Of a stretch of 64,000 bases of DNA, positions 19,631 through 32,567 are shown one piece after another. A program made the position numbers and the translations under genes. The stretch is from Terriglobia bacterium (GTDB lineage: Bacteria; Acidobacteriota; Terriglobia; JAJPHL01). The notes under the pieces were generated by a model that saw only the letters and a list, made by a program, of their open reading frames with translations, was not told where the DNA came from and ran no database searches. Position 1 is the first letter of the stretch. The number at the start of each line of letters is the position of its first letter. The stretch covers positions 62,001-126,000 of the forward strand of contig JAJPHL010000068.1 of the NCBI GenBank assembly GCA_021325275.1, in the 5' to 3' direction.

Positions 19631-21259
19631 TCACTCGCGCACGTAATACAAATTGATCGAGTGGCCGATGCGTTCGACCGGTTCCAGACGGTACAGCCAA
19701 TCCCACGAGCCGTCGGCGGCGTGACCGGTGTAGAGATCGTGAATACTGATCGCTACGTAACCGGCGGTTTCTTCCCTCGGCTTGATTTTGGTGAAAGGCG
19801 GCAAGCCGGCGTGCTCGATCAGCTCGCCGCCCCAATATTGAATGCCGATATGATCCACATGTTTTTCGCGCAGCCGCGCGCTGAGCCGTCCCAGATCCTG
19901 ACCCCAGTCGAGATCGGAGTCGACGAGAATTTTCTCGGGATGCCCCAGTGCGAGTTCGTTGAAATATGGCAAGTAGTCCGGATGCGCCCAGACGGAAACG
20001 GCTACCAGCCAAGCCGATAATGCCAGCGGGACCCAGAACCATTTGCGCTTCGTCGTAAGATTCGCGGCGGCGCCGCCGGCCAGCACTGCGAGCGGCGCAT
20101 AGATCGGCAGAACGTGGCGCACCCCGCGATTGATGCGCGACGTCATGCAGACCAGTAGAATCCCGAGCGCGAATAGTGCGGTGACGCGATGCTGCCACTT
20201 CGCGCCGCGGAAGCGCCAAAGCGCCGCGCCGAGTCCGATCAGCGCCAGCACGGCGAATCCAATCGGCGTCTTGACGGCCAGCACAACCGGGAAGAAATAC
20301 CATATGCCGGTGTCTCGCACCGTACCGAGAAGAAATGATGGTTGTCCTTTGGCATCGTGATTCGCCACTTCGGCGAATCCGCGGAACAATCCTCCGAACG
20401 GTGTGGAGACGCCGAAAAGCGGATCTACAACGCGCGCCACTGCGGAGTGATTCCCGAAAACTCTTTCCATGCCGACTTTCACAAGGTCGCGATCGTCGGC
20501 CGAAAACATTGGTTGAACGTGGAAACGATATCCAGCCCACACCAAAACGAGCATCAGACCCAGCGCGGCCGCCGCTTGTTTTAGCAACAAACCGGCGGAC
20601 AGTTTTGGCGCCTCGCCGTGCCGGATCCCCAACCATCCCAGCACCGCGCCGATCACAAAAAACGCCGGAACCGAAAACTTGCATAACAGCGCGAGCGTGA
20701 ATGCGGCGGCCAGGATTAGCGCCCTGCGCATGGTCGGCTCTTCTCGCCAACGCAACAATTGATACAGCGCCAATGCGCACGTTGCGGTTGCGCCCATGTC
20801 GAGCGTCGCTTGACCGCTATGCGCGAGAATCGGCGGCAGGCACAGGAACAGAAACACCGCCCACAATCCCGCCCACGGACCAAACCAGCGCTTGGCCCAA
20901 AGTCCCACCACCACTGCGCCGAGAACCAAGAACGGCAAAGTTCCCAAGCGCGCCAGCGCCAATCGGTCGCGCGAATGTTCGTCGGCGTAGAGAATCGACC
21001 ATCCTTCCGGCCAGATTTCCCGCAATCCCGCCGATCGCACGCCGCTTAGATAAAGCGGAAGGCCGATCATCGCGCGCGCCAACGGCGGATGCTGGTACTC
21101 GTAGAGGCCCATCTTTCCTTCGAGCCACTCCATTCCGCACGCGATATGCGCCGGTTCGTCGGTCGTGGCGCTCAGACGGTAATACGTGGACGCGACGCGC
21201 AGCGAGGCAATCGCGATCAGCGCAGCCACGGCGATCCGCCACTTTGTTTCAGGCGTCAT
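19631..21259 (-). CDS. GT39-like membrane glycosyltransferase (copy A)
   Basis: The ATG at 21259 overlaps the stop of copy B (ATGA) and gives 542 residues with about 11 hydrophobic segments. The first periplasmic loop has the acidic pair DEP (SATTDEPAHIACGMEWLEG) and HPPLARAM, typical of GT39/ArnT-like enzymes that move a sugar from a polyprenyl-phosphate carrier. The C-terminal periplasmic part contains VDSDLDWGQDLGRLSARLREKHVDHIGIQYWG. Copy B shares these motifs closely, so the two arose by tandem duplication. The acceptor may be protein or envelope lipid. The stop lies 3 bases from the convergent phosphoesterase. Confidence 0.8.
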   Translation of the reverse strand: MTPETKWRIAVAALIAIASLRVASTYYRLSATTDEPAHIACGMEWLEGKMGLYEYQHPPLARAMIGLPLYLSGVRSAGLREIWPEGWSILYADEHSRDRLALARLGTLPFLVLGAVVVGLWAKRWFGPWAGLWAVFLFLCLPPILAHSGQATLDMGATATCALALYQLLRWREEPTMRRALILAAAFTLALLCKFSVPAFFVIGAVLGWLGIRHGEAPKLSAGLLLKQAAAALGLMLVLVWAGYRFHVQPMFSADDRDLVKVGMERVFGNHSAVARVVDPLFGVSTPFGGLFRGFAEVANHDAKGQPSFLLGTVRDTGIWYFFPVVLAVKTPIGFAVLALIGLGAALWRFRGAKWQHRVTALFALGILLVCMTSRINRGVRHVLPIYAPLAVLAGGAAANLTTKRKWFWVPLALSAWLVAVSVWAHPDYLPYFNELALGHPEKILVDSDLDWGQDLGRLSARLREKHVDHIGIQYWGGELIEHAGLPPFTKIKPREETAGYVAISIHDLYTGHAADGSWDWLYRLEPVERIGHSINLYYVRE

Positions 21260-22896
21260 TTCGAGTTCTCCGGCGGAATGTAGTACAAGTCGATCGACTT
21301 TCCGACTCGCTCGAGCGGTTTGCGATCGTACAGCCACGACCACGAGCCATCGCGGGCGTGACTGGTTTCGAGCGTTCGCAAGCTGATGGCGACGTAACCC
21401 GTGGTAACTTCATTAGGCTTCAGTTGAGTGTACGGCGGCAAGTCGCCCGAACTGAGCGGCGCGTTGCCGAAATATTGGATGCCCACGCGATCCACATGCA
21501 GCTCGCGCAGGCGGCGTCCCAAGCGGTCGAGGTCCTGGCCCCAATCGAGATCGGAATCCACGACTATTTTTTCCGGATGCGATCCCGCGAATTCGTTGAA
21601 GTACGACAGGTAGTCGGGGTGCGCCAGCGCCGAGGAGACGATCAGCCATGCGGTAAGAACTACCGGCAGCCACTTGGTTTGTCGAATCGCATAGAGTTGG
21701 TTGGCCGCGTGTCCCGCCAGCACGGCCAGCGGTACAAAGATGGGCAGGATGTGCCGCACGCCGATGTTGATCTGCGAACTCATGCAGACAATGAGAATCG
21801 CGAAAGGAAACAATGCGGTCACGCGAAGCTGCCACGGCGCGGAGCGAAACCAAACGAGCACCATAGCCAGTCCCGCCAGCGCCAGCAGCATGAATCCGAC
21901 CGGCGTCTTCACGCTTAGCACGACGGGGAAAAAATTCCAGAAGCCGGACGTGCTGTAGCGGCCGAGCAAGTAAGACTGATGTCCCCGGGCGTTGTGATTC
22001 AACAACTCCAGAAATCCGCGCGCCAGGCCGCCATACGGTGACCGAATATCGGCCGCATGACTCGCGATACTCACCAACTCCGGCCGCGTCACGCGCTCCG
22101 TCAACACGCGTAGGAACTCGGGCTTTTCCTTTGGCAGAACGATCGGGCGATAGTTGAAGTGGTATCCGGCCCACAAGAGGAACAGCAGAATTCCGGCGAT
22201 CGCGGCGGCTTGCCGCAGGAGCGAAGCAAACCTAAGCTTGGGAAGATTGGCGCCCCACAGGCCGAGGAGTCCAATCGCCGCGCAAGCGATCAGAAAAACC
22301 GGCACGGAAAACTTGCACAGAACCGCCAGCGACAAAGCCACGCCGAGCACAACCGCGCGCGTCATGGACGGCTCTTCGCGCCAGCGGATCAGTTCATACA
22401 GTGCCAGCGCGCATGACGCGGTCGCGGCCATGTCGAGCGTGGCGAGTCCGGCATGCGCCAGCGCCGGCGGAAGGAACGTGAAAAACAGCACCGCCCACAA
22501 TCCCGCCGTTGCGCCAAACCATCGCCGCGCCCAAAGCCAGACCACGACGCTGGCAAGAATCAGGAACGGCAAGTTTCCCATGCGCGCCAGCGCGAGCCGC
22601 CAACGGTGCTCGTGGCCCGTGTAGAGAATCAGGTTGCCTTCGCTGATCATTTCGTCGTCGCCCGAGGATCGCACGCCCTTGGCGTACAATGGCGCCGCCA
22701 ACATCACGCGCGCCAACGGCGGATGCTCGTAACCGTACGTATAAGTGCCGCGATCGATCCACTCCATGCCCGCGGCGATGTGGTCGGGCTCGTCCATCGT
22801 CGCGCTGAGCACCGGATACGTCGCGACGATGCGCGCGATGGCGATCGCGATCAGCGCGGCGACGATCCATGACGGTCGGGAGACGAGAAATTTCAT
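21256..22896 (-). CDS. GT39-like membrane glycosyltransferase (copy B)
   Basis: A 546-residue paralogue of the next gene, with the same plan: an N-terminal membrane helix, SATMDEPDHIAAGMEWIDRG with the acidic pair, HPPLARVML, about 11 membrane segments and a C-terminal periplasmic domain with VDSDLDWGQDLDRLGRRLRELHVDRVGIQYFG. It is translationally coupled to copy A (4-base overlap) and follows phosphoesterase copy B by 9 bases. The three minus-strand genes therefore look like one operon acting on polyprenyl-linked sugars at the inner membrane. Confidence 0.8.
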   Translation of the reverse strand: MKFLVSRPSWIVAALIAIAIARIVATYPVLSATMDEPDHIAAGMEWIDRGTYTYGYEHPPLARVMLAAPLYAKGVRSSGDDEMISEGNLILYTGHEHRWRLALARMGNLPFLILASVVVWLWARRWFGATAGLWAVLFFTFLPPALAHAGLATLDMAATASCALALYELIRWREEPSMTRAVVLGVALSLAVLCKFSVPVFLIACAAIGLLGLWGANLPKLRFASLLRQAAAIAGILLFLLWAGYHFNYRPIVLPKEKPEFLRVLTERVTRPELVSIASHAADIRSPYGGLARGFLELLNHNARGHQSYLLGRYSTSGFWNFFPVVLSVKTPVGFMLLALAGLAMVLVWFRSAPWQLRVTALFPFAILIVCMSSQINIGVRHILPIFVPLAVLAGHAANQLYAIRQTKWLPVVLTAWLIVSSALAHPDYLSYFNEFAGSHPEKIVVDSDLDWGQDLDRLGRRLRELHVDRVGIQYFGNAPLSSGDLPPYTQLKPNEVTTGYVAISLRTLETSHARDGSWSWLYDRKPLERVGKSIDLYYIPPENSK

Positions 22897-22905
22897 GGCC
22901 TGCCG

Positions 22906-24078
22906 CTATTTTCCCACCACATCGAGCAGCGTGACCTCCGGACGCGAGAAGAAACGCGCTTCCGGCTGCGGCCACTTGGCTAGTCCGATTCCGCGAGAGA
23001 CGTACAAAGTGGTTGAACCCAAGCGATACAAGCCGGATTCGTAGGCCTTGTCGTAATCGGAATAGGTCAGCAGCGCACCGTAAAACGGCAGAGCGATTTG
23101 GCCGCCGTGCGTGTGTCCGCAAAGATAGAGATCATAGTGATCGCGCGCCACGGGGAGAATTTCGTCGGGCGTGTGGAAGAGAAAAATGCTGAACTTGTCT
23201 GGCGGCGGCGGAAGATCGGGCATCGTCTCATAGTGTCCCTTGCCTGCGCCGCGAATCCACAGCGTTGCGCCACGCACGTCCAGTGTTTCGGCCTGTCCGG
23301 TGAGTTCGTGCGCGTTGGTCCCTTGGAAAATGTGCCACTGCTCCCAATACGCGCCGTCGTCGACATTGCCTTTCACGGCATAAACCGGTGCGATCCGGCT
23401 CAGTTGCAGAAAGAAATCCTTGAAGCGCGCGCGGACGGCGTCGGCCGGCGTATTCAGCGCGTCGCCGGCGAACGCGATCAAATCGGGTTTTTCCGCGGCG
23501 ATCACGCCGGGAAGGCGCGATTCGAGCCGCGCTTTGCGGTTCATGTGCAAATCGGAAATCAAAACGATGCGAACATGCGCTCCGTGCGGCAACTTGGAAC
23601 TTTCCACTTGAATGCGCGTGACCTCCAGCCAGTACGGTTCGATGAAGTATCCGTACAGCACGCACAGCGCGCCAACGCCCGCAATTCCCAGGATCGCGCG
23701 CCGCAGCCAGATGTAGGCACGCGACCGCCGGCGTCCGCCGCCGGTGACGGCCAGGAAAAAATATTCGTAGACCAACAGCAGCGCGGCGAACGAGAATCCG
23801 CCGATCAGCGCGGCGACGAAAAGCAGAACGCGCACCGCGGGATCGAGTTGCTCGAAAAGAAGTGCGTGCGCGACGCGCAGGAAGTTGCCTTCCTGGGCGC
23901 CCGGAATCGTGCGGAATATTTCGATCGCCTCGGTTAGCTGCGGAGCTTCACTGGTGGCATTATAGGCGCGATAATAAACGGCCAAGGGTCCCGCACAAAT
24001 CAAAATGGCGATTGCTAAGACGAGCGGAACGATCCAGACCAGCGGTGAACGCCGGCGCGTTGTCGGGGGTTGGTTCAT
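22906..24078 (-). CDS. Membrane-anchored metallophosphoesterase (copy B)
   Basis: A 390-residue paralogue of the gene at 18449, opposite in strand. It has the same N-terminal membrane segments and the same phosphoesterase motifs: ISDLHMNRKARLESR, GDALN, GNVDDG in place of GNHD, FLFHTPDEI and GHTHGGQIALPFYGALLTYSDYDKAYESGLYR. The missing His in the GNH motif is shared with copy A, although the replacing residue differs (Val versus Gln). The ATG at 24078 is preferred to a TTG one codon earlier. It heads the minus-strand operon with the two GT39 genes and is divergent from the secreted protein gene. Confidence 0.8.
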   Translation of the reverse strand: MNQPPTTRRRSPLVWIVPLVLAIAILICAGPLAVYYRAYNATSEAPQLTEAIEIFRTIPGAQEGNFLRVAHALLFEQLDPAVRVLLFVAALIGGFSFAALLLVYEYFFLAVTGGGRRRSRAYIWLRRAILGIAGVGALCVLYGYFIEPYWLEVTRIQVESSKLPHGAHVRIVLISDLHMNRKARLESRLPGVIAAEKPDLIAFAGDALNTPADAVRARFKDFFLQLSRIAPVYAVKGNVDDGAYWEQWHIFQGTNAHELTGQAETLDVRGATLWIRGAGKGHYETMPDLPPPPDKFSIFLFHTPDEILPVARDHYDLYLCGHTHGGQIALPFYGALLTYSDYDKAYESGLYRLGSTTLYVSRGIGLAKWPQPEARFFSRPEVTLLDVVGK

Positions 24079-24132
24079 CAAGTGCGCAACAAGCGTATGA
24101 TAGCACGTGCTATCGAACAGTTTCGTTTAGCC

Positions 24133-25107
24133 ATGAAGTCCTACCTCTTTGTGACCGTCGCGATCGTTGCGTTTACCGGCGCGGTTTCGATCGCGCTGCG
24201 CGGCAGCCGCGCTTCCTACCAGAGTCCCGCGATTCACTTGCCGCCGGGTTGCTCGATGCTTCCGGAGAACAACGTGTGGAACGCACGAATCGATCACTTG
24301 CCTCTCGACGCTATGTCGAGGGCGTACGTCGAATCGATTGGCCGCGACGCGCCGTTGCATCCGGATTTTGGGCGTGAATACGGATATCCGTACGGCGTCG
24401 CCCTCAACGACGCGCCGGAGACCGCCGTCACGTTCACCACGTATGCCGCGGCCAGCGATCGCGGCCCTTACCGGATCGCGCTCGACGCGCCGATCGAAGT
24501 GGAAGGCGATCGTCACGTGCTGGTGATCGACCCGGCGAAATGCCGCCTCTACGAACTTTTTGGCGCGCGACGCGGCTTTCTGGGCGGGCGGCCCAACGCC
24601 GGAGCGTGGACCGCCGAGTCGGGCGTCAGCATCGACCTGCGGTCGAACGCGCTGCGTCACGACGATTGGACTTCCGCCGACGCGTCCGGCATGGCGATGC
24701 TGCCGGGTCTGGTGCGCTATCAAGAAGTGGACGGCGGCGTCATTCGGCACGCGCTCCGTTTCACCGCACGCCGCACCCGCGCCGCGCACGTGTGGCCCGC
24801 GCGCCACGACGCGTCGCGCCTGCGGGAGTCCAGTTTGCCGCCGATGGGCCAGCGCTTTCGTTTGCGCGCGTCGTTCGATCTGTCTGGATTCAGCAGGGAA
24901 TCGCGCGTGATCCTGACGGCGCTGCAACAATACGGCATGTTTCTGGCCGACAATGGCGGCGCGTGGTACCTGAGCGGCGCGGTCGACTCACGTTGGAGGC
25001 CCGCGGTCGATGCGGAATTGAAACTCGTGAAAGGATCGGACTTCGAAGCGATCGATTCGAGTTCGCTGATGAAAGATCCCGATTCCGGCGAGATTCTTCG
25101 GCGCTAG
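24133..25107 (+). CDS. Conserved secreted protein of unknown function
   Basis: The ATG at 24133 gives 324 residues with an N-terminal signal or anchor (MKSYLFVTVAIVAFTGAVSIAL). The mature part reads PPGCSMLPENNVWNARIDHLPLD, then HPDFGREYGYPYGVAL, GDRHVLVIDPAKCRLYELFGA, DDWTSADASGMAMLPGLVRYQEVDGG, HVWPARHDASR and ILTALQQYGMFLADNGGAWYLSGA. I recognise this as a family widespread in soil bacteria and some fungi, without an assigned function. The dense aromatic and acidic motifs suggest an extracellular enzyme or carbohydrate-binding fold, which is inference. Confidence 0.6.
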   Translation: MKSYLFVTVAIVAFTGAVSIALRGSRASYQSPAIHLPPGCSMLPENNVWNARIDHLPLDAMSRAYVESIGRDAPLHPDFGREYGYPYGVALNDAPETAVTFTTYAAASDRGPYRIALDAPIEVEGDRHVLVIDPAKCRLYELFGARRGFLGGRPNAGAWTAESGVSIDLRSNALRHDDWTSADASGMAMLPGLVRYQEVDGGVIRHALRFTARRTRAAHVWPARHDASRLRESSLPPMGQRFRLRASFDLSGFSRESRVILTALQQYGMFLADNGGAWYLSGAVDSRWRPAVDAELKLVKGSDFEAIDSSSLMKDPDSGEILRR

Positions 25108-25110
25108 TTG

Positions 25111-25494
25111 TTACAGCGATTGCAGTTTGTCGAGAATCAGAAAATCGGCTTCCAGCAGATCGTAAACCCCGAGCTGCTTCGGCGCCACCCAGCGTATCTG
25201 CTCGAAGTCTTGGTTTACGATCTCGCCTTCGTAGCGGTCGACCTTGAAAAAGATCAAAAGGATTTTCGGCTTCTTCGGATAGCTGTAGCCGAAGCGCGCG
25301 ATCTCCGGACCGATTTCGGCGTCGATGCCGAGCTCTTCCTTCAATTCGCGCCGCAGCGCGGCGGTGGTTTCCTCGCCTTCCTCGATCTTGCCGCCGGGAA
25401 ATTCCCACTTGAAAGGAAATTCCCGGATGGCCTTGCGTTGGCAAATCAAAATCTTTCCGTCTTTCAGAATGACCGCGGCCGCTATCGATTTCAT
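25111..25494 (-). CDS. Nudix hydrolase, MutT/8-oxo-dGTPase-like
   Basis: The ATG at 25494 gives 127 residues (MKSIAAAVILKDGKILICQR). The Nudix box G-x5-E-x7-REUxEExGU is complete (GGKIEEGEETTAALRRELKEELGI), preceded by KWEFPGG, the mark of the MutT-like subgroup that clears oxidised nucleotides. The tail EQIRWVAPKQLGVYDLLEADFLILDKL is also typical. The upstream in-frame extension to 25548 is unlikely to be translated. The gene ends 3 bases from the convergent secreted-protein gene. Confidence 0.85.
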   Translation of the reverse strand: MKSIAAAVILKDGKILICQRKAIREFPFKWEFPGGKIEEGEETTAALRRELKEELGIDAEIGPEIARFGYSYPKKPKILLIFFKVDRYEGEIVNQDFEQIRWVAPKQLGVYDLLEADFLILDKLQSL

Positions 25495-25566
25495 CGTTTC
25501 TTGTCTTGCCTTCGTGCCTTGCCGTGCTACCGCACTTGCGCTTTCCATCGCTGGTCTATCTCCGTC

Positions 25567-26778
25567 CTATGATTCCCATCGCGCGCCCAACAACCCGGCC
25601 GCGAATTCCACCAACTTGCGATCCGCTTCCTTGAACGCCGCCGGCCGGTCGCTGTCGATATCGATTTCACCCACCACGCGTCCGTTCGACCAGATCGGCG
25701 CGACGATTTCCGATTTCGTCTCGATGCTGCAGGCGAGATATCGCGGATCGCTGTTTACGTCGTCGACGATCACCGTGGCGCCTTCGCGCACGGCCGCGCC
25801 GCAGATGCCTTGGTCGATGGGAATGCGCGTGTGAGGCGAGGGCTTGCCGAGATAAGGACCTAAGATTAACTCGTTGCCGTTCCCGTCCATCAGATAAACG
25901 CCAACCCAATTGTAGTGCGGAAGATTGGCTTTCAGGAAGCCCACAACTTTTTCGATGGCCTTCGCACCTTGCGCATTGTCGAGCGCCGATTCCAGCCGCG
26001 ACTCGAGCGACAACGTCATACCCACCTCCGGATGCAGAATTTCCAGCAGCGCTTCCGCGCCGCGCCGCAAAATCAAGGACGGCGTGTTGAGCCATTCGTC
26101 GCGAATCACGTGAACGCGCGCGTCGCGCACCGCAGGCACGGTGGCCCATCCCGGCCGCGCGATCACTTTTGCGGGATCGGCGCGATCGCCCGTGGCCGCC
26201 CACGCCAAAACGATCACTTCCGGTTGCGCGGCGATCACTTCGTGATCTTCGACCCGTCGCGCGGCCGGCGCAGGAACGAACTCGCCACCGGCGATGGCGA
26301 TTAATTCTGCGACCCACGTGGGCGACGCGATCAGCGGATTCGGCCAGCTCTCGCTCCAGACGCGCGGTCGCGTGCCGGTGGACCGCGCGAGCTTGCGCAC
26401 TTCTTCCAGCCTCGCGCGAAAAGCCGCGACGAGCGACAGCGCGGCTTCGGTCTCGCCGATCAGCCGGCCGATCATCTCGATTTCCAGGAAAACGTCAGAG
26501 AGCCGCGCGGGATTCTTGGCGACGAATCGCGCGCCGGCGGCGATCAGCTTGCCCGTAACGTCGGCGGAGTAGGGCACGCTGCCGATCACCAGATCGGGGC
26601 GATACTGCATCACCGTTTGCGGATCGGCGGTCCAACAGTCGTCGAGTTCGGGCAGGGAAGGAAGATCCGGGCAAACGTCCTTGCACCATTTCGTAACGGC
26701 TACCAAGCGGTCGCCCGCGCCCATGGCGAGAAGCATTTCGGTGGAGCTTGGCGCAAGAGAAACGATCCGCTCGAACAC
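25567..26778 (-). CDS. BtuF-like helical-backbone metal/cobalamin-binding domain fused to a GAF (fRMsr-like) domain
   Basis: The single 403-residue frame joins two unrelated folds. Residues ~1-250 match the helical-backbone periplasmic binding fold of cobalamin/siderophore receptors (RIVSLAPSSTEMLLAMGAGDRLVAVT, then PDLVIGS), but no signal peptide is present, so it is probably cytoplasmic. Residues ~265-400 form a GAF domain of the free-methionine-(R)-sulfoxide reductase type: NWVGVYLMDGN, LGPYLGKP, the Cys-bearing GICGAAV near 322 and YLACS near 348, then SEIVAPI and GEIDIDSD. Both family cysteines are kept, so catalysis is possible. A role linking corrinoid or metal sensing with redox repair is speculation. 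No corrinoid transporter genes are adjacent. Confidence 0.8.
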   Translation of the reverse strand: MFERIVSLAPSSTEMLLAMGAGDRLVAVTKWCKDVCPDLPSLPELDDCWTADPQTVMQYRPDLVIGSVPYSADVTGKLIAAGARFVAKNPARLSDVFLEIEMIGRLIGETEAALSLVAAFRARLEEVRKLARSTGTRPRVWSESWPNPLIASPTWVAELIAIAGGEFVPAPAARRVEDHEVIAAQPEVIVLAWAATGDRADPAKVIARPGWATVPAVRDARVHVIRDEWLNTPSLILRRGAEALLEILHPEVGMTLSLESRLESALDNAQGAKAIEKVVGFLKANLPHYNWVGVYLMDGNGNELILGPYLGKPSPHTRIPIDQGICGAAVREGATVIVDDVNSDPRYLACSIETKSEIVAPIWSNGRVVGEIDIDSDRPAAFKEADRKLVEFAAGLLGARWES

Positions 26779-26801
26779 AAGCTTTATTCTATTGTAGAAA
26801 G

Positions 26802-27152
26802 ATGTACAGCGCGCGGTTGCTCGATCATTTCCAAAATCCGCGAAACGCCGGCGAGATGGAAGGCGCGAGCGTCACGGTGGAAACATCGAATCCCGTGTGC
26901 GGCGACATTCTGAAATTGTGGGCGAAGATCGAGGACGGCCACGTCGCCCGCCTGACTTTCAAGTGTCGCGGATGCGTGGCCTCGATGGCCTGCGGATCGG
27001 CGCTCACCGAACTCGCGGCGGGGAACACGATCGCGGAAGCTCGCGCGATCACCACCGCGGATGTCGAAGCGGCCGTTGACGGTTTGGAGTCCGCGAGTAA
27101 GCACGCGGCTGTGTTGGCGGTGGATACGCTTAAGAAGTTGCTGGTTGGCTAA
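26802..27152 (+). CDS. NifU/IscU-like iron-sulfur scaffold protein with the third Cys missing
   Basis: The ATG at 26802 gives 116 residues in the IscU fold (MYSARLLDHFQNPRNAGEM). Cys33 lies in NPVCGD with the following Asp, and Cys58 sits in CRGCVASMACGSALTEL, with extra Cys55 and Cys64. The third ligand expected in the HCS motif is replaced: the sequence reads SKHAAVLAVDTL with Ala102 after the conserved His101. The extra cysteines could compensate. IscU/SufU-type scaffolds receive sulfur from a cysteine desulfurase; none is in the window. Divergent from the BtuF-GAF gene, which starts 24 bases away. Confidence 0.8.
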   Translation: MYSARLLDHFQNPRNAGEMEGASVTVETSNPVCGDILKLWAKIEDGHVARLTFKCRGCVASMACGSALTELAAGNTIAEARAITTADVEAAVDGLESASKHAAVLAVDTLKKLLVG

Positions 27153-27162
27153 CGGTTTTTTC

Positions 27163-27227
27163 AACGCAGAGGACGCAGAGACGCAGAGAACCCCAGGTTC
27201 TCTCTGCGTCTCTGCGTCCTCTGCGTT
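27163..27227. terminator. Period-8 hairpin (CTCTGCGT type) between convergent genes
   Basis: Arms at 27163-27189 and 27201-27227 are perfectly complementary over 27 bases and are built from repeated ACGCAGAG / CTCTGCGT units, separated by an 11-base loop. T-rich and A-rich runs flank it on both sides, as in a bidirectional terminator. It overlaps the stop codon of the minus-strand gene by two bases. A related 29-bp inverted repeat lies at 48242-48339. Confidence 0.7.
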
Positions 27228-27831
27228 AAAAAGAACCGCCGGGTGGCACAGTCAGGCCAGTGACTTGGGCGTACGCCTCAGGATCGTCGAGATCCTGCAA
27301 GATTCCCTCGCAGTCCACCGGGACGTGCAGCACGTTGTGCTTTCGCACGACCACGCGTGCGCCTTCGTCGAGCGACGCATCGAATAATTCTTGAAACAAC
27401 TCGCGACTGAAGATCATGGGATGGCCGCGGCGATCGCGATACGTGGGAATCAGTACGGGCGGGCGCGATTCTCTCCACGTAGAAACAAGCTGCGACACGA
27501 GCGCGCGATCGATACATGGATGATCCACGAGCGCGACGAGCGCCGCATCAACACCGGCCGGCAAAGCACGCAATCCTGTTTGCAATGAGGAAAGCTGTCC
27601 CGCGGCGTAGTTCTCGTTTACAACAGCTTGCGGAATCGCCACCGACGCACGGACGCGTTCGGCGTGCGCGCCGAGCACGACCACCAAAGGGCTCACAACT
27701 CCCTGAAGTTCCGCCAGCAAATGTCCAAGAAAAGTTGTTCCGCGATAGGGAAGGAGTGGTTTCGGAAATCCCATGCGCCGCGACTCACCCGCCGCCAGCA
27801 CGATCCCCGCGATGGTGGCGTCAGTTGGCAA
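27226..27831 (-). CDS. MocA-like nucleotidyltransferase (molybdenum cofactor cytidylyltransferase family)
   Basis: A 201-residue GT-A-fold nucleotidyltransferase: the signature IAGIVLAAGESRRMGFPKPLLPYRG binds the nucleotide, followed by QLSSLQTGL and LVDHPCIDRALVSQLV, then PTYRDRRGHPMIFSRELF typical of MocA/MobA-like proteins. MocA transfers CMP to molybdopterin for xanthine-dehydrogenase-type enzymes. The preceding gene encodes XdhC, with an 11-base overlap, which supports that role. The paired hydroxylase is not in the window. Confidence 0.82.
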   Translation of the reverse strand: MPTDATIAGIVLAAGESRRMGFPKPLLPYRGTTFLGHLLAELQGVVSPLVVVLGAHAERVRASVAIPQAVVNENYAAGQLSSLQTGLRALPAGVDAALVALVDHPCIDRALVSQLVSTWRESRPPVLIPTYRDRRGHPMIFSRELFQELFDASLDEGARVVVRKHNVLHVPVDCEGILQDLDDPEAYAQVTGLTVPPGGSF

Positions 27832-28645
27832 AAACGGATTTCGTCACGGCCTGCCGGTTATTGGATTGCTGCAATTCCGTGCCGCGGCGCACGGCGATCA
27901 ACTCCGCTACCACGCTCACGGCGATTTCTTCCGGCGTCACCGCGCCGATTTCCAGGCCGATCGGGGTGTGCACTTGCTCCAGGCGGTCGGCGGGTACGCC
28001 TTCACGCTCCAGTTCCTTGAACACTTCGATGGCCTTGCGCCGGCTGCCGATCATTCCAATGTACCGCGCGGGCGTCGAGACGGCCCAACGCAGCACGCGC
28101 ATGTCGTCCTTGTGTCCGCGCGTGACAATCGCCAGATAACTCGATTCGTTGATGTCGAGCTTCGGCATCACGTCTTCGTACTCCGCGGCGTGTACCTCGG
28201 CGGCCTCCGGAAAACGCGCGCGGTTCGCGAATTGCTCGCGGCTATCGACGACCACCGTGCGGAATCCCGCGAACGAGGCGATTTTCGAAAGGCTCAGCGA
28301 CACGTGTCCCGCGCCGAAAATATAGAGCGATTGCACAGGCAACATCGGTTCGATAAACACCTCCAGTTGACCGCCGCAGATCAAGCCATTGTCGAGCAGC
28401 GCGTCGCCCGCCAGGTTAAACGACATGCGCCGCGGCTTTCCGCTCTCGATCACCTCGCGCGCGGCGGCCCACACTTCCGCTTCCACGCATCCGCCGCCGA
28501 TGGTGCCCACCATGCTGCCGTCGTCGCGGATCAGCAGCTTGGCGCTCTCGTAGCTGGGGATCGATCCCTTGACGCTCACGATCGTCGCAAGCGCCGACTT
28601 TTGACCGGCACGACGCAGCCGCACGAGTTCTTCGAGAACGTCCAT
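27821..28645 (-). CDS. XdhC/CoxI-family molybdoenzyme maturation factor
   Basis: The ATG at 28645 gives 274 residues. The N-terminal XdhC/CoxI domain has TIVSVKGSIPSYESAKLLI and GTIGGGCVEAEVW, with the conserved Cys. The C-terminal Rossmann domain has LYIFGAGHVSLSLSKIASFAGFRTVVVDSR and AIVTRGHKDDMRVLRWAV ending in IGMIGSRRK. Family members bind and sulfurate or insert the molybdenum cofactor of xanthine dehydrogenase or CO dehydrogenase. The following mocA-like gene is coupled by overlap. A longer in-frame start at 28720 overlaps the divergent dehydrogenase and was not used. Confidence 0.88.
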   Translation of the reverse strand: MDVLEELVRLRRAGQKSALATIVSVKGSIPSYESAKLLIRDDGSMVGTIGGGCVEAEVWAAAREVIESGKPRRMSFNLAGDALLDNGLICGGQLEVFIEPMLPVQSLYIFGAGHVSLSLSKIASFAGFRTVVVDSREQFANRARFPEAAEVHAAEYEDVMPKLDINESSYLAIVTRGHKDDMRVLRWAVSTPARYIGMIGSRRKAIEVFKELEREGVPADRLEQVHTPIGLEIGAVTPEEIAVSVVAELIAVRRGTELQQSNNRQAVTKSVFAN

Positions 28646-28718
28646 AGTGCTTTCTTTGGTATTGTAACTCTTTGCCTGCGTCGCGGAGCGAAAGGAGCAG
28701 GCTTTTAAGGAGCAGAGC

Positions 28719-29741
28719 ATGAAGGCAGTGCGTTTTCATGAACACGGCGGATTGGACGTTTTGCGTTACGAGGACGCCCCCGATCCGGTGATTTCGTCGA
28801 CCGAAGTGCTGGTGCGCGTGAAGGCGTGCGCGCTGAATCATCTCGATATTCACTTGCGGCGCGGCGTCCGCAAAATGTCGTTGCCGCACATTGTCGGCGC
28901 GGACGTGGCCGGTGAAATTGCGGCGGCCGGCGCGGAGGTTCGCAACTGGAAAGCCGGGCAAAAAGTATTGTTACAGCCCGGCGTCAGTTGCGGCGTGTGC
29001 CCGGCGTGTTTGAGCGGCGACGACAATCTCTGCCGTCAGTACGCGGTGCTGGGCAGCGCGGGCGACGGCGGATACGCGGAACTCGTGAAAGTTCCCGAAG
29101 CCAACGTCATGCCGTATCCCGAGGGACTCTCGTGGGAGCAGGCCGCGGCCGTGCCGCTGGTGTTTCTCACGGCGTGGCACATGCTCTTGAATCGCGCGCG
29201 GATGCGCGCGGGCGACACGGTGCTGGTGATTGGCGCGGGCAGCGGCGTGGGCAGCGCGGCGATCCAAATCGTGAAGCTTTTCCACGGACGCGTGATCACG
29301 GTCGCCGGCAGCGACGCGAAACTCGCCAAGGCGCGCGAGTTGGGCGCGGACGAAACGATCAACCACGCCACGCAGGACATCACCGCCGAAGTGAAACGCA
29401 TCACCGGCAAACGCGGCGTCGACGTGGTGTTCGAGCACGTGGGACAAGCCACGTGGAATCACTCCTACATGAGTCTCGCCACCGGCGGACGCCTGGTCAC
29501 GTGCGGCGTGACGAGTGGTTACGAAGCGTCGATCGACTTGCGCTACTTGTTCAGCAAGAATCTTTCGTTGATCGGATCGTTCATGGGACGCAAGGACGAA
29601 TTGATCGAGTTGATGGAGTTTGTGAAGCAGGGCAAGCTGAAGCCGGTGGTGGATCGCGTCTTTCCGCTGGCGGAAGCGCGCGCCGCGCAGGAACACATCG
29701 AGAAGCGCGAGCAGTTCGGAAAAGTCGTACTACAGTGCTGA
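28719..29741 (+). CDS. Zinc-type medium-chain dehydrogenase/reductase (quinone oxidoreductase-like)
   Basis: A 340-residue MDR protein. It has the N-terminal GroES-like domain with MKAVRFHEHGGLDVLRYED, the structural zinc lobe CGVCPACLSGDDNLC, and a Rossmann domain with GAGSGVGSAAIQIVKLF. The usual catalytic zinc residues are partly replaced (LNHLDIHLRRG near 38), as in NADPH:quinone reductase-like members, so a zinc-independent reductase is likely. The substrate is unknown. A ribosome site AAGGAG precedes the ATG by about eight bases. Its end merges into a period-7 palindromic array. Confidence 0.82.
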   Translation: MKAVRFHEHGGLDVLRYEDAPDPVISSTEVLVRVKACALNHLDIHLRRGVRKMSLPHIVGADVAGEIAAAGAEVRNWKAGQKVLLQPGVSCGVCPACLSGDDNLCRQYAVLGSAGDGGYAELVKVPEANVMPYPEGLSWEQAAAVPLVFLTAWHMLLNRARMRAGDTVLVIGAGSGVGSAAIQIVKLFHGRVITVAGSDAKLAKARELGADETINHATQDITAEVKRITGKRGVDVVFEHVGQATWNHSYMSLATGGRLVTCGVTSGYEASIDLRYLFSKNLSLIGSFMGRKDELIELMEFVKQGKLKPVVDRVFPLAEARAAQEHIEKREQFGKVVLQC

Positions 29742-29829
29742 GTCCTGAGTGCTGAGTCCTGAGTAAGAACTCAGCACCCGGGACTAGCGGTGTACTCAGC
29801 ACTCACTCAGCACTCAGGACTCAGGACTC
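29735..29829. repeat. Period-7 palindromic array (ACTCAGS type) between convergent genes
   Basis: The left half repeats CTGAGTC/CTGAGTG heptads and the right half repeats ACTCAGC/ACTCAGG. The halves are complementary and can fold into a long hairpin. The array starts inside the last two codons and stop of the dehydrogenase gene and ends just before the stop of the convergent protease gene. A second copy of this design lies at 50341-50459. Confidence 0.75.
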
Positions 29830-29830
29830 G

Positions 29831-31975
29831 TTACTTAGCTTGGATCGTCACCGTATTGCTCTTGTTGCCGAGCGAATCGGTGATTTGCACGTTGACCGTG
29901 CCCGTTCCCAGGCCCGCCGGCAACGCCGCGTTCACTTGATAAAGCGCCGAGCAGCACGACGTGACGCCCGTGTACACGGCGCTCACGGTTTTCGTAGCCG
30001 TCGATGTCGAGAACGTCACGGTGGCGCCCGCCGTTGTGCCCGTTCCTGCGAGACCATCGATGGCCGCCGGCGACGTTTGGCCCAATCCCGAAGCGTAGAT
30101 CACCAGCGCATCGCCCGCCGCCGCTGGATTCGCGGAGTTCGCGATCGGACACGCGGCCGGACAGCCCGCCGCCGATCCGTCTTGGATCGCGCCTTGTCCC
30201 GATCCCGTGCTATCGATCGAGAAGAGCTTCGGCGCCGACGCGACCACGGTGATGGTGCCGTAATCGAACAGCGAATTGTTGCCGACCTGTACCTGCACGT
30301 CGACCGTGCAACCGGTGCTCGATCCGGTGGAGCAGGAAACGGCTTCGTACGGAATCATCGCGTTCACCTGGCCGGGACTCACGAAGAAGATCGGTGCAAA
30401 ACGGTCGCCGACGCGAACCATTACGCCGCCCAGTTGCGTGGGCACGGGGAAAACGGCGTTGCCGATCGTTTGCGTGGTCAGGTCGAGACCGTAGATGGAG
30501 ATGAACGATCCTGCCGCGTACGTTTTCGTGTTGGCCGCGGAGTCGATGATGCCACCCGCGCCGATAAAAGGATTCGTGGTGACTTGTAATCCGCCCGGTT
30601 GGACGTCGTTGCTGGTGTAAACGTCGTAGAATCCCGGTGCGCTCGTGGCGGGGAACGACATGGTTTGCGAGATCAGTGCACCGATGTTGCAGGTATCGGA
30701 AATGGTCGATCCGGTTGATGTCGCACCGGGCACGGATGTGGTGATCGGTCCCGCGAGACCCGCGCCATAGCCGCAAACTTTGTAGGTTCCGGTGTTGCTG
30801 GGATACGCGCTACCCACGCCGGCGCGCCGCAGGCTGACGAGATTCGCTCCAAAATTTGCAAATCCGCTATTGTTCGCGTTCGGGGTGCTGACCACGATGT
30901 CTTGGAACAGCGCCGTGTGCGACAGCAATGCTTGAAATGTGGGAATCGCGGTGTTCCCCGAGGCCGCCACGGTGATCGGCGACGGCAGCGAAAATGCATT
31001 GAACGCGGTGGGATTCGCCGTGTTGTACTGCGACGTGTAAAACGCCGGCGATGTCGGCGAGACGTCGAGCGGCTTCACCCACACGTTGTATGTGCCGGCC
31101 GGGACGATCATGGAATACGCGCCCGTGGAGTCGCTGATTCCGTCAACGGCGGGCATGCCGGTTTTGTTGTCCACCAAATGGACGACCGCACCTAAAACCG
31201 GAGCGCCCAATCCGTCGGTAATCTTGCCGGAAACGGAGCCGCCGAAATTGTTCACGCCGTACGCGGCCTGAATACCGGCAATATCGTCCGTGGCGAGGGA
31301 GCGATTCGGAAAACTCTGTTGGGCGGCGCCGACCATGATGGCGTTTTCCTGGGTCGAGTGATGCAATCCCAGAACGTGGCCTAACTCGTGGATCAACGTG
31401 CCTTCGATATCGTTCGCCTGGTTGAGAGCGGAGCCGTTGATGTAGCGTCCGTCGGTCGAGAAGGGAGATCCAATGTTGAAAGTGATGTCGGTTTCGTAAA
31501 TCTGTCCCGGGAAGGTTGTCGGAATCGCCGGGCAGGTTCCCGACGCGCCCCCCGGCACTTGCACCCAGAAAACGTAGGTGAACGCGAGGACACTGCCGGT
31601 CGGCGCGGGACTGCCCGCGCTCTGATCGTTGAACGTGATCACGTTGACGCCGTCGCATCCGGCGTTCTGCACGCTGGTGGTCGCACCACCATCGGCGAAT
31701 TGCACGTTGATCTTGTTGGCCTTCAGAACGCTGTTCCAGACGTTCAGCATGTCGTTCTTGATTACGGCTTGAACCAGCGAAGGATTCGGATTGCTGGACG
31801 CGAACTGCGACGGAAACGTCAAGTTGTACGCCATGGAGATCGTTCCGGATCCCCACTTTTGGTAGTAGGTTGTCTTGCCGTCCAAGGTCACGGCGTATTG
31901 CAACGTGTAGGTGTACGCGAGTGTGCCGAGGGCGATGACCGCGGCGAGAGAGAGCCAAAGGAATCGGTTGCGCAT
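29831..31975 (-). CDS. Secreted matrixin-like metzincin protease with TIGR03437-like C-terminus
   Basis: A 714-residue protein with an N-terminal signal/anchor (FLWLSLAAVIALGTLAYTY). The zinc motif HELGHVLGLHH (HExxHxxGxxH, about residues 195-205) places it in the metzincin clan, close to matrixins (M10). The Met-turn likely lies in ENAIMVGA. A carboxypeptidase-regulatory-like beta domain follows at about 245-305 (GKITDGLGAPVLGAVVHLVDN), and the shared C-terminal secretion/surface domain runs from about 470 to the end. It is probably a secreted or surface-bound endopeptidase. The gene follows a small secreted protein gene with a 1-base gap, so the two are one operon. Confidence 0.82.
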   Translation of the reverse strand: MRNRFLWLSLAAVIALGTLAYTYTLQYAVTLDGKTTYYQKWGSGTISMAYNLTFPSQFASSNPNPSLVQAVIKNDMLNVWNSVLKANKINVQFADGGATTSVQNAGCDGVNVITFNDQSAGSPAPTGSVLAFTYVFWVQVPGGASGTCPAIPTTFPGQIYETDITFNIGSPFSTDGRYINGSALNQANDIEGTLIHELGHVLGLHHSTQENAIMVGAAQQSFPNRSLATDDIAGIQAAYGVNNFGGSVSGKITDGLGAPVLGAVVHLVDNKTGMPAVDGISDSTGAYSMIVPAGTYNVWVKPLDVSPTSPAFYTSQYNTANPTAFNAFSLPSPITVAASGNTAIPTFQALLSHTALFQDIVVSTPNANNSGFANFGANLVSLRRAGVGSAYPSNTGTYKVCGYGAGLAGPITTSVPGATSTGSTISDTCNIGALISQTMSFPATSAPGFYDVYTSNDVQPGGLQVTTNPFIGAGGIIDSAANTKTYAAGSFISIYGLDLTTQTIGNAVFPVPTQLGGVMVRVGDRFAPIFFVSPGQVNAMIPYEAVSCSTGSSTGCTVDVQVQVGNNSLFDYGTITVVASAPKLFSIDSTGSGQGAIQDGSAAGCPAACPIANSANPAAAGDALVIYASGLGQTSPAAIDGLAGTGTTAGATVTFSTSTATKTVSAVYTGVTSCCSALYQVNAALPAGLGTGTVNVQITDSLGNKSNTVTIQAK

Positions 31976-31976
31976 G

Positions 31977-32567
31977 TTAGCGGGTCACCTTTCCTGCGGC
32001 CGTCCGCCGCACTGACTCGCTCACTTGCTTGAGAAACTCACCCAGATCGCGCGACGTACGTGTCGCGGTCACCACGTTGGCGATTTCATCGGATGCCACG
32101 ATTTGTCCACCGCCCGCCAACGGTTGACTGTGATTGACCGTGGCCGACGTTGCGCCGGGAGCCGAGCGCACGCGAAACGCGCCTTGTTCGTATCCGATCA
32201 CTTGATGGAACTTGGGGTCGGATTGCACGAAGAAGACCGCGCGCTCGCCTACTTGAAATTGCGGCGCGCCCGGAACCGATCCCACAATATTTCCCACCTG
32301 GCCGCCGGGTTCGGTCAATTCAAACGTGCGGCCCAGATTTCCTTTCATGTAACTCTCGGCCTGCACCGTGTAAAAAGTGTAGATCAAGCTGCCGGGACCG
32401 TTGATCCAAGCGGCGCGCGACGCTACGATGCGTCCCTGCACGATGGCCGAGGAACCGGCGGTCATTTGGTCCAAGGTGAGGATCTGAAGCGTGGCGGCCG
32501 GCGCGACACACGGCAGGGCCAGGCACACCGCCAGAGCCAAGCGGAGGCAAGGGGGGATTTTTTTCAT
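31977..32567 (-). CDS. Small secreted protein of unknown function, partner of the metzincin gene
   Basis: The ATG at 32567 gives 196 residues with a clear signal peptide (MKKIPPCLRLALAVCLALP). The mature part is a beta-rich domain: DQMTAGSSAIVQGRIVASRAAW, TVQAESYMKGNLGRTFELTEPGG, QVGERAVFFVQSDPKFHQVIGYEQGAFRV. I do not recognise the family with certainty; similar short secreted proteins occur beside metalloproteases in acidobacteria, and an inhibitor or propeptide-like role is possible. It lies one base upstream of the protease gene. The in-frame upstream extension to 32654 was rejected because the signal peptide begins at 32567. Confidence 0.6.
   Translation of the reverse strand: MKKIPPCLRLALAVCLALPCVAPAATLQILTLDQMTAGSSAIVQGRIVASRAAWINGPGSLIYTFYTVQAESYMKGNLGRTFELTEPGGQVGNIVGSVPGAPQFQVGERAVFFVQSDPKFHQVIGYEQGAFRVRSAPGATSATVNHSQPLAGGGQIVASDEIANVVTATRTSRDLGEFLKQVSESVRRTAAGKVTR

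Follow-up and report, generated by a model that had tools for sequence, protein, structure and literature searches.

A signal-less BtuF-like domain fused to a type II fRMsr-like GAF domain in a Terriglobia genome

The closest described relatives of the protein analysed here are free-methionine-R-sulfoxide reductases (fRMsr), enzymes that repair oxidised free methionine, and binding proteins of the BtuF type, which serve vitamin B12 ABC transporters. The fRMsr of T. acidophilum, named type II, has a two-cysteine pattern in which Cys84 is the nucleophile and Cys60 is required yet forms no disulfide with Cys84, which is thought to be resolved by an external thiol (PMC6211008). The fRMsr structures 3mmh and wild-type 3ksf have a further, third cysteine, placed ten residues ahead of the first. 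For E. coli BtuF, the aromatics of the cobalamin pocket are Y50, W66, W85, F162, F168 and W196 (PMC5269720). A limited full-text search of the literature found no fusion of a binding protein with a GAF domain, and the papers searched gave no ligand report for signal-less BtuF-like proteins. Here, we describe an open reading frame that joins two such domains, located in a 64,000-nt stretch of Terriglobia DNA (the window).

The frame is uninterrupted over its 403 codons (Table 1). Pfam places Peripla_BP_2 (PF01497) at residues 5–226 (E 1.9e-24) and GAF at residues 289–399 (E 4.5e-13), and the GC3 content across the junction is even (0.77/0.72/0.74). An AlphaFold2 model based on 39 related sequences has a mean pLDDT of 92.5 and a pTM of 0.81, with both halves confident. 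Together with the structure matches given below, this bears out a sequence-only reading of the locus, which had described a continuous frame joining a signal-less BtuF-type fold to a GAF domain of the fRMsr type that keeps both fRMsr cysteines (GICG and LACS).

Table 1 Features of the fused gene and its neighbours in the window; locus counts are from the 80 loci described in the text, which are biased toward loci holding the binding protein.
Feature	Position	Strand	Basis or remark
Fused ORF, 403 aa, GTG start, TAG stop	25567..26778	-	Reading frame
Class III substrate-binding-protein half, residues 1–253, without signal peptide	26020..26778	-	PF01497, family alignment, fold match
Type II fRMsr-like GAF half, residues 254–403, from Met254	25567..26019	-	Start coincides with start of stand-alone homologues; structure matches; alignment
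His316 codon	25831..25833	-	Position of the third cysteine in type I fRMsr
Cys326 codon (GICG)	25801..25803	-	Aligns with Cys60 of T. acidophilum fRMsr (4mmn); invariant in 26-sequence alignment
Cys350 codon (LACS)	25729..25731	-	Aligns with Cys84, the nucleophile of T. acidophilum fRMsr
GGAGGT Shine-Dalgarno-like site, 4 nt before internal ATG (26019-26017)	26024..26029	-	Sequence
TAGAAT, -10-like box, 7 nt before GTG start	26786..26791	-	Sequence; TAnnnT in homologues
MutT/NUDIX neighbour, 18 nt downstream of fused ORF	25111..25548	-	Pfam/profile matches; homologue in 71/80 loci
NifU/IscU-like scaffold gene, divergent, 23 nt from fused ORF (gap 26779-26801)	26802..27152	+	Pfam; homologue in 65/80 loci
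MocA-like molybdenum-cofactor nucleotidyltransferase	27226..27831	-	Pfam/profile matches; homologue in 46/80 loci
XdhC-family maturation factor	27821..28720	-	Pfam/profile matches; homologue in 39/80 loci

The nearest structures to the GAF half are those of fRMsr. Its sequence matches 3mmh (E 8.6e-26) and 4mmn (E 1.2e-23) far beyond chance, and its AlphaFold model superimposes on 3mmh with Z 23.7 and an rmsd of 1.4 over 146 residues, on 3ksf with Z 23.5 and on 4mmn with Z 23.2. Besides the two cysteines, the fRMsr alignment shows that the active-site columns W291, Y295, E357, D373 and D375, which we take to be the substrate site, are kept, and all of these columns are conserved in the stand-alone neighbours too. 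The sequence-only reading had proposed testing for fRMsr-type residues at all three positions, and one of these differs: ten residues before the VCG cysteine, where type I enzymes have their third cysteine, stands His316. The same histidine occurs in the stand-alone GAF neighbours, in 44 of 50 by pattern and in the remaining six by eye. The two-cysteine pattern of type II fRMsr is present, and the GAF half is likely an active type II fRMsr domain. A search of the source genome found no second fRMsr-like protein; the other matches to the GAF half were only GAF stretches, about 30% identical, of one 650-aa open frame.

The binding half matches V. cholerae BtuF and heme-binding proteins in sequence, and its AlphaFold model has the class III binding-protein fold of BtuF, with Z 24–26 against heme- and B12-binding proteins (1n4a, Z 24.3; 5ysc, Z 24.2). 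Conserved in the family alignment are W31 (W or Y), C32, D47, W49, Y70, E143 and W145, and further W155, W193, W211, D227, E228, N231 and P233. The signal peptide is absent, as had been noted from the sequence, given that the fold begins at residue 4, and the homologues are alike: nearly all begin 1–13 residues before the RIVSL motif and most also lack a signal peptide. The accompanying suggestion that this half binds a corrinoid finds no support. In an alignment with E. coli BtuF, one of the six pocket columns is aromatic (Y50, here W31); W49 and W145, both invariant in the family, are each displaced by one residue from W66 and F162, and the aromatics at W85, F168 and W196 are lost. The glutamates E72 and E202 of BtuF, which presumably dock on BtuC, are not kept either, being Q54 and H179 in columns that vary within the family. 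The same genome carries a separate BtuF with a signal peptide, adjoining BtuC and BtuD (L197; names by eye), and the binding half is therefore not the binding protein of the B12 transporter. No Rfam element, cobalamin riboswitch included, reached the gathering threshold near the gene (20000–32000), and neither a permease nor an ABC ATPase was seen in the conserved neighbourhood. The binding half is best read as a class III binding protein of the cytosol that has lost its role in ABC transport; the fold permits no more than a guess at the ligand, such as a planar metal cofactor or a comparable small molecule. A second signal-less BtuF-like protein is encoded in the same genome (L198, 809–1729), just before a frame that by eye resembles a Dph6/ATP-pyrophosphatase-type protein.

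We compared the locus with 80 loci from other genomes that were found by binding-protein patterns, so that all counts are biased toward loci holding the binding protein. The titles of all but one place them in Acidobacteriota, in Terriglobia or in a genus of these (79/80; the exception, L149, is titled Betaproteobacteria). A GAF gene follows directly downstream on the same strand in 50 of these 80 loci, mostly after a gap of 5–60 nt. The MutT, NifU, MocA and XdhC homologues and a zinc alcohol dehydrogenase homologue (25/80) have the same relative placement as in the window. The two halves had been taken to belong to unrelated functions, but relatives encode them side by side and in the same orientation, within a single conserved neighbourhood, and the fusion therefore joins neighbours rather than strangers. 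Nevertheless, in the closest relative among those examined (L040, same order) the run nifU - fRMsr - mutT lacks an intervening binding protein, and in many genomes the binding protein and mutT occur without the reductase alongside; the two proteins are therefore not strictly interdependent. The conserved order across the window (25111–28720) and L114–L193 reads xdhC - mocA - (HAD-like phosphatase) - nifU-like - binding protein - fRMsr - (TlpA-like thioredoxin protein in some) - mutT, often with an NRAMP-like transporter on the far side (HAD, TlpA and NRAMP named by eye). Elsewhere in the window, a 345-aa ORF at 24070–25107 has no Pfam match at E 0.001, and a 714-aa protein at 29831–31975 combines, by eye, a matrixin-like metalloprotease and a carboxypeptidase-regulatory-like region with a C-terminal domain of a kind common in Solibacter-like Acidobacteriota.

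The fused arrangement was found nowhere else. Among the matches listed from searches of 61, 2, 399 and 396 genomes (repeats included), no other spans both halves without stops, no record in a plasmid collection covers 80% of the fused protein, and the binding-protein/GAF pairs read in relatives are always separate genes. Alignment A3 holds read-through translations of loci at which both genes share a frame. Ten loci with a long shared open frame were considered as further fusions and rejected, given that translation revealed stop codons between the genes; at six others the long open frame upstream of the GAF gene does not encode the binding protein. Homologues with the halves always separate, which the sequence-only reading had named as counting against it, are thus what all relatives inspected have, and the fusion therefore seems private to the source genome and rests on one genome.

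The codons across the junction are CAT CCG GAG GTG GGT ATG ACG, that is, HPEVG followed by Met254, the point where the stand-alone GAF homologues start. A GGAGG lies 4–9 nt upstream of only 3 of the 1,533 ATGs on both strands of the window, the internal ATG included. Given this strong ribosome-binding site, the reductase may also be made alone, probably by internal initiation at Met254. Many stand-alone GAF genes have, by eye, TTAAGAT a few bases before their ATG, where the GAF start in the window has the Shine-Dalgarno-like site instead. The TGA that overlaps the internal ATG (ATGA) lies in the +1 frame, and thus one indel within the final codons of the binding protein is enough to switch between a fused gene and overlapping genes. 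A 4-nt gene overlap at one locus (L156) holds only with a TTG start, and we make no claim for it. At the other end of the gene, 45 of 78 homologues carry a TAnnnT box 3–12 nt ahead of their start, compared with a mean of 9.7 and a maximum of 18 in shuffles, and Shine-Dalgarno-like motifs are not enriched there, which suggests that transcripts of the binding-protein gene are leaderless. The 23-nt gap at 26779–26801 holds -10-like boxes for both the divergent nifU-like gene and the fused gene, and both may be leaderless.

We consider it probable that the ORF unites, in this genome alone, two adjacent genes from a neighbourhood of oxidative housekeeping and cofactor genes: one contributes a cytosolic binding domain, the other an fRMsr domain of type II that is likely active. 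The neighbourhood xdhC - mocA - nifU-like - binding protein - fRMsr - mutT would have supplied both genes, and the binding-protein stop codon was probably lost or bypassed right beside the reductase start. Both domains would then act side by side in oxidative-damage housekeeping, with Met254 and its ribosome-binding site probably yielding a separate reductase too. The same junction could also arise from a one-base sequencing, assembly or strain-specific indel, with the real genes abutting or sharing ATGA and encoding two proteins, as in relatives. We regard this as unlikely, though it deserves to be taken seriously: the genes are separate in all relatives inspected, the junction GGAGGTGGGTATGACG is one indel away, with its TGA overlapping the internal ATG in the +1 frame, and a strong Shine-Dalgarno site is kept before that ATG. 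However, the assembly is fairly good (75 contigs, 97.6% complete), the frame is intact to the HPEV tail and from Met254 onward, and the longest run at the junction is GGG, with no long homopolymer.

GAF domains are often sensors, and the fold of the binding half resembles both BtuF and heme-binding proteins, which would fit a version of the coupling suggested by the sequence-only reading, with a corrinoid, heme or siderophore bound in the cytosol and the signal passed on to a GAF domain turned from enzyme to redox sensor. The retention of all fRMsr active-site columns, the largely lost or displaced cobalamin pocket and the existence of two separate proteins in relatives make this very unlikely; the fused protein also has no output domain, although none would be necessary if it binds a partner. 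Even less can be said for a binding protein of an ABC transporter with an accidental C-terminal passenger, which we judge extremely improbable despite the profile matches to BtuF-type transporter proteins. The fused ORF and most of its homologues have no signal peptide, the conserved neighbourhood shows no permease or ABC ATPase, the docking glutamates are replaced by residues that the family does not conserve, and a full secreted BtuF-BtuC-BtuD set is encoded elsewhere in the genome.

Fusion of two genes that are conserved neighbours elsewhere hints, by the circumstantial ‘Rosetta stone’ argument, at joint work of fRMsr and the cytosolic class III binding protein, and it makes signal-less BtuF-like proteins accessible to testing. 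Provided that the fusion is real, ligand and reductase are open to study in one recombinant protein. A bolder proposal, which we think distinctly improbable, is that the two are genuine functional partners, covalently joined here and made separately in other genomes. The binding protein would then carry an oxidised small molecule or a redox-sensitive cofactor for repair by the GAF enzyme, and both would belong, with NifU, MutT, MocA and XdhC, to an unrecognised cluster of Acidobacteriota for oxidative repair or molybdenum-enzyme maturation.

Compared with known systems, the fused ORF is a modest variant of known parts, not a new system. The separate acidobacterial binding-protein/fRMsr gene pairs (for example, L116, L126 and L137) share its domains, order, strand and neighbours, but consist of two genes, separated by a stop codon and, in most cases, 5–60 nt. 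BtuF of V. cholerae (5ysc, 24–25% identity to the binding half) and E. coli (1n2z, 17%) has the same class III fold, whereas the half in the window is without signal peptide or adjoining transporter genes and has mostly not kept the pocket aromatics and docking glutamates. The best fold matches to this half are heme-binding periplasmic proteins (RhuT 5y8b, 2r7a and 2r79; Z 25–26, for the fold alone), which differ in being periplasmic and transporter-linked. Type I fRMsr (N. meningitidis 3mmh, S. aureus 3ksf, E. coli YebR 1vhm and yeast YKL069W 1f5m) shares the fold, the substrate-site columns and two of three cysteines with the GAF half, but has the third cysteine in place of His316. T. acidophilum type II fRMsr, with about 35% identity over the GAF domain, has its two cysteines at the same positions, a histidine for the third cysteine and the GEIDIDSD motif; it is a stand-alone protein, whereas the GAF domain in the window sits behind a binding-protein domain.
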